A DNA stretch of 64,000 nt from Neocallimastix lanati (nom. inval.) (taxonomy: Eukaryota > Neocallimastigomycota > Neocallimastigomycetes > Neocallimastigales > Neocallimastigaceae), in NCBI GenBank assembly GCA_016946835.1, contig JACVTC010000011.1, positions 469,001 through 533,000 on the forward strand, written 5' to 3'. Numbering within the stretch: the first letter of the stretch is position 1; every line of letters starts with the position of its first letter. Shown here one piece after another: positions 1-52,863 of the stretch. The position numbers were made by a program, and so were the translations under genes. The notes under the pieces were generated by a model. The model was not told the origin of the DNA. It worked only from the letters and a program-made list of their open reading frames with translations, and made no database searches.

Positions 1-1559
1 CAATATTATAATAATTCTCTTAGTTTACATTAGTTTTTTATTATTTTTTTAATCTTTTATTCATATAATTTTTTTTTTTTTGAAACTTCTATTCGTATTA
101 TGTAATAAAGTAATATAAAAGAAATTTTTAATAAATTAAAGCAAAAATTAAAGTATTTCAAATTTGTATATAACATATATATATATATATAATAAATATT
201 TAAAGTAGAAAACTTCATGAATATTTTTCATTGTTAACAACATATTACTAATTATTATGATTAAGTCAATTTATATTGAATATATATTATTTTTAAAATT
301 CAAATATTAATAATATAAATTTATTTAATAGTCATCCAATTAACTATAAAAAAAATATTTATAAAAATGATAATTTTTATCCGCATAGAGTTATCATTGA
401 ATAAATGGGAAGAGTCAGAGGCCATTTTATCCTCGAAACTCATAAAATAGTTTTCAATATCGTAAAAAATTTCATGTATTTTATTTTCATATATTCTTTT
501 AATAAATATTATTAAATAAAGTTATTTCTAATCTAAAAATAACTTAATAAAATAAAATAAAATAAAAATATTTATATTATAATAATTAATAATTATTTAG
601 TTGTTAGTTGTTATTGCAATTTTTTTTTTCTGGATTTTGGTTTTGGTGAGTGTGGGGAGCGTATAGTTACTATGGCAAGACTGATGACTATTAAAAATAC
701 TTTAGCAAAGCTGTAATAAATAGCAAAATTATTTCAAAAATATTTATTGTTCTAAATCTTGGGTATTTAGTATTCATCAATAATGAATGGTAAAAGTTTA
801 TAACTCATTAATTGAATATATAAATATTTATCTATATATAACTATGTATATATAATTATGTATATATTTTTATTTATATATATTTATGTATAACATTTAT
901 GTATATATTTAGTTATAAATCTATGTTTATATTTATGTATTGTTTATTACTTATATATTCTAAATATATAGTATTTTCTTTTAAATTATAAACACCTTAT
1001 ATTATGTAATATAAATCTATTATTATTATAATGTAATTAAAATGGGGTTTTATAATATTAATATATAATATAATGACATGTAATACAATATGAATATAGC
1101 ATGAAATAATAAAATATTATTTACATTTTATACTTTTTTATAGCTATTAAATTTATTTTAATTGATTCATTTATTTGAAGTATAGTTTATAAAATCATAA
1201 TTTTTCATTTATATTTTATTTATTTTGAATAAAATTTTGAATTATTATTTTTTAATAAAATTTATTTTTCTAAATTTATTTTTTTTTTACCTTATTTTCT
1301 TACATACTTATATTTATTAGAATTTTATAAAAAATATTCTTTAAAAGTTATTCGTTTTAGTTTATTAAATATACTTTAGTATCCATTTTACATAAATAAA
1401 TGAATATAATTCTAAGGCCGTCCATAATAAAATTGTGTTTTCTTTTCAAAATTTTTTATTTTTAAAATATTATTTTATGAATTTTTATAAAATTTATTTA
1501 GTTAAAGTAGAGCTTTATTAAATTAAAAATATAATCATTCTACATTATAATTGTTTTTC
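1..1559. other. AT-rich intergenic DNA
   Basis: No gene is supported here. It contains a decayed LINE 3' end (378-545, listed separately) and a short, more GC-rich patch near 625-720 that reads as a 28-codon open stretch but matches nothing I recognise. The rest is A/T homopolymer and TATA-like sequence. Confidence 0.7.
378..545 (+). mobile_element. Decayed 3' end of a LINE retrotransposon
   Basis: This stretch matches the last codons and 3' UTR of the better preserved LINE copy ending near 52860. Both share GTTATC, then AATGGGAAGAGT, then GAGGCCATTT, then CCTCGAA, CTCATAA, TTTCATGTATTTT, and finally an AATAAAGTT tail followed by CTAATCTAAAA. The copy here has a one-base insertion that shifts the frame next to the conserved Asp-Glu-Trp-Glu-Glu codons, so it is a dead, 5'-truncated copy. 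It shows that the family has been active more than once in this neighbourhood. Confidence 0.75.
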
Positions 1560-2771
<1,212 letters not shown>

Positions 2772-2939
2772 TCATTCTTTGAAGTTTCATGGTCGTTTAA
2801 CCTCCATAGTTTTAACCAATTTCAAAGTTATCTCATAGTTAATATTGATTGCATCATTTCCACAACTGATATGGTATATATATAAATATCTATAATAATA
2901 AATTTATAAAAAGTCAAAAATTCAAAATGGCATAGTCTT

Positions 2940-4310
2940 CTTGATAAGATCGATTCTAATATAGTCATATAGAATAGTCTCTGAGCATTAATTAATTTTT
3001 TAGAATTATCATTAAACATACATTGTTTCTTCATGCCTTCTTGAAATGTAAATCAAGGACCAAGATTATTATCTGATAATGGTAATAACGCATTGAATAA
3101 CCAAAAAATAAAATTTAGGTCGAGTTCTTCATATTCAAAAGAGCTATTATATTTATACTCAGAATTATTAATAAATCTAATACCAAGGACGATATTACCT
3201 TTTTGGACTCTAAGAGGTCCTACAATTCTTCCTTCAACTGTGAAAAGGTAATAAGCCACTTCATCAAATACTAAGCTAGTAAAGGAATATCCTAATTTTA
3301 GTTTACTGTAGATAAATTCAACCAAGTTGTAAGTAGTAAAACCAATGAATCTAGAATTTAATAAAACTGGATATTCTCTCTTATCATTTTTTTTTTTACC
3401 TTCTTTAACGTCATTATATTGAGGAGAACCCTAAAGTATCGAAGATATACAGGATAAATCTATGATAAAATTAGGAACAATCAATGCCGATAGTCCTAAA
3501 GACTTCACTATATCTATATCCTTAGATTCTGGTGTTTCAAAGGAACAAAAATAGCCGTATTCGCAGGACAAAAGTAACCCCATATTTTTTGCTTTCATTA
3601 TTAGTTGGTATCTGAACTCATCAAATATGCGATAACTTATCATAATAAGAACGTTTGCCTAGCATTTGATTAGCTATGGAAGAATATTCACAAAAATAGA
3701 ATCTAATCGTACAGGACTTTATTTTACTATATATGCTAAAATTTAATATGGACCCAAAATTATTTGTTGCTAATTTTTTATTTTTATTTTCCAATTCAAA
3801 ATATTTTACCGTTGGGTATAAGAAACATGGGAAACAATCAATTCTATTACTAAAGTAGGGCATAATACTATTAAAATCTAAAAACACCTTCGTCATGCAT
3901 AAATAGGTGTAAAATTTAGTGTCTAAAAACACTTTTGTCATACATAAATAGGTGTAAAATTTAGTGTTTCTATCTTCATATGAAGAACCATCACAGTGCA
4001 AAAAATCTAATGTGAGATAATTGTCGATCATGTCATTAATAATGCTAATGATTTCTTTTTTGGATTCCTTTCGATGAAATTATAAGATAGATTCAAGAGT
4101 AGTTTCCGGAGAAGAATCAGGAATAACTATTTTATTTCATCGGGAATGTTTTTCCCAATGACATTTTCTATAATAATCCGTTTAATTTCATCCAATGAAA
4201 ATTCTAGCCTTAAATAATGGAGAACATACACTAAAGAGATACTTCATTTGTCATGCGATTTAATTCCTTTAACAGGTAAATATTGGAAAATAAGGTGATA
4301 TGTTGTCATA
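2940..4310 (-). pseudogene. Degenerate RNA polymerase second-largest subunit (Rpb2/RpoB-like), probably virus- or plasmid-derived
   Basis: Read on the minus strand, successive fragments follow the order of the central part of an Rpb2-type beta subunit. They are a FQYLPVKGIKSHDK segment (4.3 kb), a LDFLHCDGS...TKFYTYLCMTK segment (about 4.0 kb), SYYDKLSHI (about 3.64 kb, counterpart of the SHLRR region), GYFCSFETPESKDIDIVKSL (about 3.5 kb, counterpart of the ETPEG motif), VLLNSRFIGF then YLFTVEGRIVGPL (about 3.25 kb, counterpart of DAGRVYRPL), LLPLSDNNLGP (about 3.06 kb, counterpart of IPF.DHNQSPR) and TFQEGMKKQ (about 3.03 kb, counterpart of TYQSAMGKQ). The frame is broken by in-frame stops (for example TGA at 3053-3055, exactly where the conserved Arg of SPR would be), by a frameshift near 3630 and by a 45-bp in-frame tandem duplication. 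No introns are apparent and the catalytic C-terminal third is missing. The sequence is far too divergent to be the host Pol I, II or III subunit. A giant-virus-like or linear-plasmid-like source is my inference; I cannot tell which. Confidence 0.75.
3877..3966 (-). repeat. 45-bp in-frame tandem duplication inside the RNA polymerase fossil
   Basis: Two adjacent 45-bp copies (3877-3921 and 3922-3966) differ at only a few bases. Each encodes the same 15 residues, TKFYTYLCMTKVFLD, on the minus strand. Confidence 0.95.
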
Positions 4311-5868
4311 GATTTTATGTGAGATCTAAATAAGATCTTTGAAACAAATTTATAGAACCTAAAAATAATTAATGAGTCTTCCATCCACAAACTATATCAT
4401 ATTAAGAGTATTATATGACTAAAACATTGATATACGGGACTTTTATGTGCAATAATTTATAAGCAGTGGGTTTTAAATAATGGTAGTTTAATAAATTTTA
4501 TTAATAAAATTATAATATTCGTACAATTAAAATAATAATTCTAATTCCTAAAATTTTACAAGAGTTCTCTATTTCTAATATAAATAATTTAATTTATAAG
4601 AAATAGGTAATATATTAATTATATATTCTAATATATAGAACTATATAAATTTTATATGAATTAAAGTATTATAATTATTATAATACATATTGAAATAAAA
4701 TAAAATAAAATAATTATTATCAAAAAGATATAAATTTAATATTTAATAATTAATATTAAATATACAAATATGTTACTACACATATTTGTTTTATATCAAC
4801 ACTTAATAAGTAAAAGAATCCAAATATACAAAACTAAGTTACAATAATATCCGAGAAATGATAATAAGAAATTAGCCGACCTAAAAAAGGAAAGAAAAAT
4901 AATTACTTATATTCTTTTTTATAAGTAAAATACTATAAATAAGAAAAAATATAAATATAAAAAAAAACTGTGAAACAGGAACTAACTTCATATTTTATTA
5001 ATTTAAATAAAATGATTTAAACAAGAAATATATGAAACAAAAAATAATAAATAAAATAAATATTGAATGTAATAATATAATATAAAAGTACAAGTATATA
5101 AAATAAAATAAAATAAATATTGAATGTAATAATATAAAAGTACAAGTATATAAAATAAAATAAAATAAATATTAAATGTAATAATCTAAAAGTACAAGTA
5201 TATAAAATAAAATAAATATTAAATGTAATAATATAAAAGTACAAGTATAGAGAATAAAATAAAATAAAATAAAATAAAATAAAATAAACAAAAACAAGAA
5301 GTAATAAAATGAAATCCTTATTGAAAAATAATAAGAAGAATGTGAAGGTAAAGTACATATAAATAAAAGAATAAAAATAAAGATAAAATATTTATTATAA
5401 AATAATAATAAGAAGAATGTAATGTAAAACATATTTAAATAAACAATAAACAAAATAAGTATTTCTATTAGAAATAATGTGAATTAAAATATTTTATATT
5501 GATATATTAAAATGTATGAATTATTTTTTAAAATTTTTTTATATTGATATATTAAAATGTATAAATTATTAACTAAAAAAATAATGAAGTATCATTCTCT
5601 ATTTTAAAAATAACTTAATGACAATACCATAAACAGTAATGACTATTTCTAAATTAATAATATTAAAAAAATTATTAATTATATTAATATAAAATCCTAC
5701 TATTTCTATTATTTTTAAAATAATTAAATTAATAAAGCCGAAAATTAATTCATTAATTATTAGTTTCCTACGAATTTTTTTTATTCAATAATCTAAAAAA
5801 ATAAAATAAAATAAAGAATAAATGCATATACTAATGAATTTTTTTTTTTTTTTTTTGCTGAATTACCA

Positions 5869-14410: not shown

Positions 14411-15628
14411 TAAAAATAATAAAATAAAAATAATAAAAAATAAAAAAATAAAAATAAAATAAAAATAAAAATAAAATAAAAGAGAAATAATTAATTAAAT
14501 AAAATAAAATAAAAAATAAAAAAAAAAAATAAAAAAATATTAAAAAAAAAAAAAAAAAAAAAAAATAATTATTTAATTAAAGTAAAAATAAAAATAAATA
14601 ATAATAAAAATTAAATAGTAACAGTATTATTTATTAGCATTAATCTAATAATAAATATTAATTCTAATACTAAAATGAAATAATTAATTAATAAATATAA
14701 TAAATATAATAAATATATATTATAATATATGAAATAATAATATTTATAAAACAATAAAAAAAATAGTATATATATATAATTTAAAGGGAAATATATAATT
14801 AAAAAAAAATTTTTTTTTTTTTTCATTTTGTAATAATTATTATTTTTGAATTTAGTGCTATTTCATTAAATTTTTAAATAATAAATTATAATGATCTATT
14901 ATATCTAATAAAGCAAAATAAATGTAAAAAAAAATAATAATATAATAATAATAATAATAATGTAATAATAAAAATAATAAAAAATAAAATAAAAAATAAA
15001 AATAAAAAAAAAAACATTAATAAAAAGTATTTATTATAGTGTTAAAAACTAGTATTCTTTATAAAAACATAGGAATAAATAATAATGCTAAAAAAATAAA
15101 TAACATTAAATAAAATTATAATATAATTCTCGAATAAATAAATAAGAAGTTAAGAAATTAAAATTATTATTTTAAAAATACCAAAAAAGATATAAAAAAA
15201 TATTAATATTCATTTTATACTAAAAATAAGATAAATTAGAATAAAATAAAAATAATAATAACAATAATAATAATAAAGTAATATCATAATAAAAATAAAA
15301 AAAAAAAAAAAAATTAGTAAATAATATTAAAAAATAAAACAAAAATAAAATAGTAGAAATATAAAATAAATAATAAAAATATAAATATGAGATATAAGTT
15401 GAAAAATAAAATAAAATAAAATAAAATAAAATAAAAAAAAAAAAAATTCAATTATAATAATTAATATAATGTTAATAAGGAATTTTATATATCGTCAGAG
15501 AAATAAAAAGAAAATCTAGAAAGATGTGAATATGAAAATTATATAAAAATAAAGAAGAAATAAGAGAAAAAAAAAAAAAAAAAAAAAAAATTAAATAAAA
15601 ATAATAAATGAAATTTTACTCTAAAAAG

Positions 15629-51328: not shown

Positions 51329-52863
51329 ATATATATATTCCCTTCTTGGTGGAGTTAGATGAGCTACAATTCGATACTAGGGAATAGAGACATTTAAGTG
51401 AACAACTCCTAAAAAGTTCACAGGGATCTACTGTTCCGTATATTGTGGGGCTTGCGGAATATCTTGCTAATACAATACCGATCATCAGTAGCTATTATTG
51501 CTAAGATGAATAGTAAAATTAATTATACAGTTAACTCTTTCTTTAGATTTTTAACCAATAAGAATGTTCCTTTCTACTTTAAAACTCGTATACTAGTTTC
51601 TTTTGTCCTTAGGTTCAGTTCTTTATTATGCTCCCTTACTTGGTTCAAATAAAAAGAATACTGAAAAAGCTCAAACTGCTTTTAATCGAGGTTTGTATTG
51701 GAGTTTCGGGTTTAAAAATAAAACCTCCAATACTTCAATTTACAATATGTCTAAGGAACTTTCTATACCTCCTATAGCTAGTTTTTGTGCTAAGGCGATG
51801 ATTCGATGCTTTAAAAAGTAGAAAGACTCTTCTTGTATTATTTCTCATTTAGTCAAAAATATACCTACACTTTCTCACTATTCATGGACAAAAAAAGCAC
51901 GGAGTTTAGCAGTACACAAGCACAATAATAAACTTCCTGGAGAAATAAGGAAGTTTTACTGGGAAAATATTCATTATTCAAGCACTCCTGCGATCAGATC
52001 TACAAAATACAAGAAATTTAAATTTGGTTTTAAAAAATTTATTCAACGTTTATCACTTAAATATTCACAATTTTCTCTTGGATTTTTTTGGATTGGACGA
52101 ATTAAATGTGGATTCAAATTTGATGTAAAAACGTATGTTAAAAGTAATCTAGTATCAGAAAATTGCCCAACATACTGCCCTTGTTGTGGTGAGAGTAACA
52201 GCATACCTAGTTTTACTCACTGGATACTTTTATGTCCTAAATTTGAAGAATTTAGGCAACATTTCATTCCCTTTGTTGATGAAATTTTTATTAATTTTTC
52301 TCTAATTGTTCATGAGAAATCATTGAACATTCCTGATGATAAAGAGGAAGATTTTGATGATAATATCAATTTTTATGTGCTGTGTCTCCTTCTTGGCGGA
52401 AATGCAGTGTTTGAAATCTTAAAGATCGGCTCGGGGGAAAGAAGGCGATTTATTAATAATATTTTTCAATCACCTTCGAACGAGTCTTCTTTCCCGATTT
52501 CATATTTTGTGGGGCTTGCGGAATTCCTTACTAACGTTATGCCTATTGTGATTGGTGATTTTTACACCATGATCGATTTGTATAGTGTTAGACCTACCGT
52601 TGTCAAGAGCGTCGACGTCGTAACGATAAGGCAAAGAAGAAATTCTGATACAGATTCGAATGATAATTTTCATCCACATGGAGTTATCTTCGATGAATGG
52701 GAAGAGTTAGAGGCCATTTCGTCCTCGAATCTCATAACGTAGTTTTTTAATATTAATATAAAAAAAAAATTTCATGTATTTAAACTTCATGTATTTTTTT
52801 AAAAAAAAATATTATTAAATAAAGTTTATTCCTAGTCTAAAAAAAAAAAAAAAAAAAAAAAAA
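51329..52863 (+). mobile_element. 5'-truncated LINE, end of ORF2 plus 3' UTR and poly(A) (copy B)
   Basis: After about 160 bp of scrambled end-of-ORF sequence (LLGGVR, VGLAEYLANTIPI), the reading runs KMNSKINYTVNSFFRFL, SSVLYYAPLLGSNKKNTEKA, the Cys-rich knuckle NCPTYCPCCGESNSIPS with FTHWILLCPKFEEFR, LLLGGNAVFEILKIGSGE, VGLAEFLTNVMPIV and an end EEWEEL...SSNLIT at 52740-52742. These are the post-reverse-transcriptase parts of a LINE ORF2. A frameshift near 51610 and an in-frame TAG at 51819-51821, probably once Trp, disable it; from 51822 to 52742 the frame is open. A 3' UTR with AATAAA and a poly(A) run of about 25 close the element at 52863. The catalytic reverse transcriptase motifs and endonuclease are absent. 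It is the best-preserved copy of the family in the window. Confidence 0.88.

Follow-up and report, generated by a model that had tools for sequence, protein, structure and literature searches.

A fossil of a probable Nucleocytoviricota-type element between two ABC-transporter genes of Neocallimastix lanati, and its relatives in the same genome

In the window, the 64,000-nucleotide stretch analyzed here from the genome of the anaerobic gut fungus Neocallimastix lanati (Neocallimastigomycota), we found a decayed insertion at positions 643-4300 that is very probably a pseudogenised piece of an element of the Nucleocytoviricota type, comprising part of a D5 helicase gene and much of a gene for Rpb2, the second subunit of RNA polymerase, which inserted between the two ABC-transporter genes now on either side of it and decayed there. 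The window lies on contig C13 (2.1 Mb); the genome assembly totals 199 Mb and comprises 762 contigs. A DNA-virus origin had been proposed in the initial annotation, and it is borne out by the relatives of the fossil, which carry a Nucleocytoviricota gene set on a single contig. The Rpb2 fossil had been placed at 2940-4310 and is indeed found there, but the insertion is larger: it aligns colinearly with copies of the element on contigs C55 and C758, with DNA homology over 643-4295.

The insertion starts within a D5-type primase-helicase gene fragment on the plus strand (643-799; coding match at 695-799, 35 amino acids (aa), 91%), followed by a colinear region that lies past the 3' end of the Rpb2 gene (1059-1552, 67-70% DNA identity). 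The Rpb2 gene itself is on the minus strand. Its pieces comprise 1566-1829, which matches the C55 gene in its second open frame (88 aa, 62.5%); 2831-3052 with TFQEGMKKQ; 3056-3430 (125 aa) with EGRIVGPL and LSDNNLGP; 3434-3658, a domain 3 piece with FETPES, also matched by Pfam; 3624-4079, in a different frame and with KLSHI at its end; and, upstream of 4079, pieces at 4130-4300 that were recognized by profile and element matches, where the fossil terminates inside the gene. The pieces from 2831 to 4079 were each identified by motif and by profile match. The order of landmarks given in the initial annotation held for FETPES, EGRIVGPL, LSDNNLGP and TFQEGMKKQ, with KLSHI ending its own piece, while TK..M could not be pinned down.

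The insertion is disrupted by stops, a frameshift and a 45-bp tandem duplication, all seen previously and the last now placed at 3877-3967, as well as by two deletions relative to the C55 and C758 copies (at ~799-1059 and at ~1551, the latter of ~1.1 kb and beside the 1566-1829 piece) and by the expansion of an (ATT)n array of 304 copies (~0.9 kb) at 1830-2747. This array lies within the fossil, at a point where its relatives show a short tract rich in Asn (seen in the C55 frame), and is probably the outgrowth of an Asn-rich stretch in a dead gene. At the DNA level the main block is still ~77% identical to the copies on C55 and C758; the Rpb2 frame of C758 matches the window at E 7.8e-141, and open reading frames from C193, C55 and C758 had the fossil stretch as their sole match (E <= 1e-6, window plus left-flank DNA). 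The motif ETPES is not a product of decay, since the family consensus and an intact copy carry it. Three fossil pieces compared with the C55 and C758 copies gave ratios of nonsynonymous to synonymous substitution rates (dN/dS) of 0.35-0.94, between constraint and neutrality, which fits the decay of a formerly functional gene.

A profile built from six relatives (P0017-P0022) was scored over 1089 window frames, and 20 first-order Markov shuffles, with 18,358 frames in all, served as a chance control. As had been anticipated, Rpb2 similarity was found: E values were 1.1e-42 for 3056-3430, 2.2e-36 for 3624-4079, 2.7e-15 for 3434-3658, 4.4e-14 for 2831-3052, 7e-12 for 4130-4243, 1.3e-5 for 1563-2573 and 0.024 for 4247-4396, the best shuffled frame reaching 0.016. 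With a general Rpb2 profile lacking the element family, 3434-3658 came out on top (1.7e-4) and 3056-3430 second (0.14), the best shuffle being at 0.2. Pfam alone gave a weak signal, RNA_pol_Rpb2_3 at E 0.0033, below its curated cut-off and in one of five pieces; NCBIfam returned RpoB-type matches at 0.004 and weaker, and a PHROGs scan of the pieces gave just weak, unrelated matches. Measured by profiles against shuffles, the Rpb2-like identity of the minus-strand pieces is far beyond chance.

The 125-aa piece at 3056-3430 has at least 45 matches in its own genome, the window included; these and the following counts are lower bounds. Two better-preserved copies, those on C55 and C758, belong to the fossil's own lineage (72-74% at the amino acid level). 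A sister lineage, called young here, was found at no fewer than 32 places spread over 30 contigs (51-53%), its open frames there spanning 542-1226 aa. Ten further matches, fragmentary or broken, lie on C721, C481, C710, C522, C312, C35 and C749. Should C193 and C322 be circular, the 45 matches include each of them twice. We examined the sequence around seven matches (C55, C758, C100, C126, C193 twice and C322) and the short loci on C291 and C165. Contig C721 bears both a young-lineage Rpb2 frame and broken fossil-lineage pieces (positions 15225; 117528-118991).

The gene content of the element was read from C193 (70,640 bases), in which the sequence recurs after 58.6 kb, with 99.7-100% identity between the overlapping ends. 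By the listed frames ~70% of this 58.6-kb unit is coding, and the element genes are long single open frames. The unit encodes Rpb2 (PF00562, 3e-55); Rpb1, split over two genes, with QADFDGDEMN in the first; a delta-like PolB (PF00136 at 3.4e-71, PF03104; best match in PDB to Pol delta, 176.7 bits); a D5-type primase-helicase (PF08706 at 5e-7, over the cut-off, with a Walker-type motif); UDG (3.4e-8); a TFIIS zinc ribbon (1.8e-6); and an ankyrin protein. A 1169-aa SFII helicase is NPH-I-like, its PDB matches at E <= 1e-3 being just poxvirus NPH-I (2.5e-14) and VETFS (4e-7). A 960-aa capping-type protein has a methyltransferase domain over the cut-off, a ligase-type domain slightly under it and the motif KTDG, its PDB matches being weak (best 0.041). 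Catalytic-type motifs are found in the element proteins (QADFDGDEMN, NNQEDS, GDKFASR, YGDTD).

Moreover, a 736-aa protein without a Pfam match is predicted from its structural model to fold like the early transcription factor large subunit (VETF-L) of Nucleocytoviricota, a protein that is widespread in that phylum. Compared with BFVD by Foldseek, the model matched 40 viral entries at E <= 1e-3, the best of them at 2.6e-16, and this subunit was named in seven of the first 12. The matches include subunits of the marseille-, pitho-, orpheo- and mimivirus types, with iridovirus and African swine fever virus (ASFV) relatives; those proteins are mostly 1000-1400 aa long, in contrast to the shorter element protein. 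The predicted fold of the intact Rpb2 was too poor for use (pLDDT 30).

A further group of genes in the unit encodes proteins that look secreted and contain ricin-type lectin or chitin-binding domains. Two of these proteins measure 1894 and 2101 aa; signal peptides were called by eye, and the lectin match of the 1894-aa protein is slightly below the cut-off. The composition of this cassette suggests a possible interaction with the fungal wall or with competitors. In C100 the core is mostly 90-98% identical, while the cassette at 12.7-32.5 kb is strongly diverged and encodes other very large proteins. The very large secreted-looking proteins (at least 1482, 1704, 1894 and 2101 aa) diverge strongly between copies, and two of them share a stretch that is 26% identical.

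C322 is a shortened form, having two Rpb2 matches 26 kb apart and ends that match mutually over 7.2 kb, the alignment containing gaps but being free of mismatches; neither the N-terminal part of Rpb1 nor the helicase frame was seen on it. The edges of young copies fall inside genes, in D5 on C126 and C55 and in a 283-aa gene on C100. The left edge of the window copy is also in the D5 gene, so that three of four scattered edges are in D5 (C126:172266, C55:381518 and window 643), by chance or perhaps because this gene is a preferred opening point. The flank on C126 holds Copia-type retroelements.

Selection on the young copies is mostly purifying, the counts being small: dN/dS was 0.54, 0.18, 0.28, 0.21, 0.29 and 0.22 in six young pairs of Rpb2, 0.24, 0.18 and 0.60 in three pairs of D5, and 0.15 and 0.15 for UDG, with one more pair having a dS of 0, and three pairs of a 196-aa gene were free of nonsynonymous changes. 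Where one pair was compared, with few changes, the values were 0.54 for the 736-aa gene, 0.50 for a 151-aa gene and 0.35 for the 283-aa gene. Between old and young Rpb2, dS is saturated.

Searches with the intact proteins delimit a family of database proteins. Rpb2 gave 152 matches; among the best 120, which were listed, the first 24 belong to the family (17 of them Neocallimastix), after which the score drops from 1092 to 217 bits, the self-family score being 2646 bits. PolB gave 75 matches, the first 26 being family members, including Anaeromyces robustus, Piromyces finnis and Piromyces sp. E2, and all 19 matches of the 736-aa protein are family, with Neocallimastix and Piromyces among the sources. 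Unlabelled database sources of family proteins (ena, jgi, lgn) are probably metagenomes. One protein of Piromyces sp. E2 (P0145) is annotated with both an Rpb2 and a PolB domain and is probably a gene-model fusion of adjacent element genes. No close relative of the element was returned by scans of IMG/VR; 80 IMG/VR loci obtained with a PolB profile (23-35% identity) were dropped, as they fell outside the element clade in the tree and looked phage-like.

In a quick Rpb2 tree (65 rows) the element forms a clade with support of 100, apart from archaeal and bacterial rows. For PolB, a quick tree of 72 rows was followed by a careful tree with 27 of those, 36 IMG/VR rows and nine others having been dropped; here the element clade has support of 100/100, and a single clade of element and cellular Pol delta was rejected (approximately unbiased test, p-AU 0.005, for groups named after seeing the first tree). 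The young N. lanati lineage joins Anaeromyces (97/94), and an older Neocallimastix lineage lies outside the group of Piromyces, Anaeromyces and young sequences (94/94). Thus at least two element lineages do not track host genera, a mismatch that suggests, on these groupings, either old coexistence or transfer.

Two other sources of the fossil can be weighed against these data. A decayed host gene for the second subunit of Pol I, II or III would account for the weak general Rpb2 similarity and for the fact that the best PDB matches of the intact relative are archaeal and Pol II chains, but we give it practically no credence: the fossil is colinear with a D5 gene fragment, it is 64-74% identical at the amino acid level to multi-copy element genes, and the family is remote from other proteins. 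The non-host origin claimed initially likewise encountered no contrary result: in its own genome the 125-aa piece matched members of the element family best, and the score of the intact relative is 2646 bits within that family against at most 217 outside. A cytoplasmic linear plasmid of the pGKL type, the other origin that had been put forward, shares with the element the themes of an own RNA polymerase, an NPH-I-like helicase and a capping enzyme. Plasmids of this kind have an RNA polymerase beta/beta' fusion protein and a protein-primed PolB and are linear molecules with inverted terminal repeats. In the element, however, Rpb1 and Rpb2 are separate, unfused genes, PolB is delta-like, and a D5 helicase, UDG and a VETF-L-like predicted fold are present; this gene content largely refutes the plasmid origin, which we consider very improbable. 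Judged by gene content, the set is a Nucleocytoviricota toolkit rather than that of a pGKL-type plasmid.

Several observations nevertheless weigh against a Nucleocytoviricota-type source. In PDB the intact Rpb2 scored 211 bits with Pol II and archaeal chains versus 87 with ASFV and 83 with vaccinia, and the Rpb2 branch of the element is very long (3.35), so any place for it among viruses would be tentative. The Rpb2 and PolB trees included no named giant-virus sequence. The model of the 736-aa protein is middling (pLDDT 68.4, pTM 0.48), its TM-scores with viral proteins are low (0.13-0.48), and PDB yielded nothing for it at E <= 1e-3. The upstream stretches of 22 frames showed no prominent promoter-like motif. 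The ends of C291 do not match each other, leaving direct end redundancy in two of the three contigs checked at both ends (C193 and C322). Finally, of the linked viral genes named in the initial annotation, PolB and the capping enzyme were found, but the major capsid protein (PF16903) had no match in the genome; nor did VLTF3 (PF04947), the control of each model being silent too. The A32 packaging ATPase (PF04665) had no match anywhere in the genome either, and here the control gave matches in two of 14 genomes. The absence of the packaging ATPase is credible because this control responded.

These negatives bear on what the parent was. We see about an even chance that it was an ordinary virion-forming fungal virus, with capsid genes too diverged, carried in copies outside those examined, or lost: the control of the capsid model responded nowhere, several unit proteins including the largest are without assignment, much of the element DNA of the genome lies outside the copies examined, and a fungal endogenous virus likewise has no major capsid protein according to PMC10640383, where loss after integration is discussed. 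Against such a parent stand the missing packaging ATPase and the fact that frames of at least 300 aa in the 58.6-kb unit are assigned save for the 1894-aa, 2101-aa and ankyrin proteins. A more novel and tentative picture, to which we assign an appreciable chance that nonetheless falls short of even, is a capsid-less, plasmid-like Nucleocytoviricota derivative in anaerobic gut fungi, circular or concatemeric, with a near-complete replication and transcription kit, without virion genes and with a fast-diverging secreted cassette, seeding chromosomes with fragments.

The element itself may exist as circular or concatemeric DNA. The near-identical ends of C193 and C322 could also mark recent chromosomal tandem arrays, a possibility only a little less than even, which agrees with the other copies being chromosomal fragments and with the lack of redundant ends on C291. 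However, the ends are 99.7-100% identical within C193 and within C322, versus a difference of 0.7-2.1% in Rpb2 among the four contigs compared, which fits circles, arrays being possible. The polymerase, capping enzyme, termination-type helicase and early transcription factor of the element could transcribe its genes without the nucleus, so that its transcription would probably be cytoplasmic; fragments may have entered chromosomes by breakage, with no dedicated integrase, and the window copy would be a dead by-product of the element.

Poxviruses run their own transcription without the nucleus. The same is described for pGKL elements in PMC6211774, and the likeness to yeast cytoplasmic virus-like elements of the pGKL2 type covered there extends to the own RNA polymerase, NPH-I-like helicase and capping enzyme, in contrast to the unfused Rpb1 and Rpb2, delta-like PolB, D5, UDG, VETF-L-like fold and redundant ends (two of three contigs) of the present element. 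In Rhizophagus irregularis, PMC10640383 describes an endogenous Nucleocytoviricota region as a single 1.5-Mb insertion, Asfarviridae-related and present in one of five strains. Both that region and our element place a viral-type PolB, RNA polymerase subunits and a capping enzyme in a fungal genome, with neither major capsid protein nor A32 found; the region is given there as lacking D5 and SFII helicases, whereas here units are at most 58.6 kb, multi-copy, and carry D5 and an NPH-I-like helicase. PMC10640383 also states that no double-stranded DNA virus infecting fungi is known.

A cultivable fungus with many copies bearing intact replication and transcription genes, and no recognized capsid, makes it possible to ask directly about a live element, particles and self-transcription. 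If capsid-free, the element would connect giant viruses with plasmid-like cytoplasmic elements, as proposed for yeast elements from polymerase phylogeny in PMC6211774. Caution is also due with genes labelled RNA polymerase in anaerobic-fungus annotations, where these are element genes. Our literature search returned no paper naming both Neocallimasti- and NCLDV, and some pairing Neocallimasti- with "giant virus"; Gong et al. 2020, who reportedly dealt with fossils of double-stranded DNA viruses in fungi, may have noticed the family earlier. Elsewhere in the window, at 51822-52742, a 306-aa open frame without a Pfam match has a C/H-rich motif and by eye resembles the polymerase end of a retroelement.
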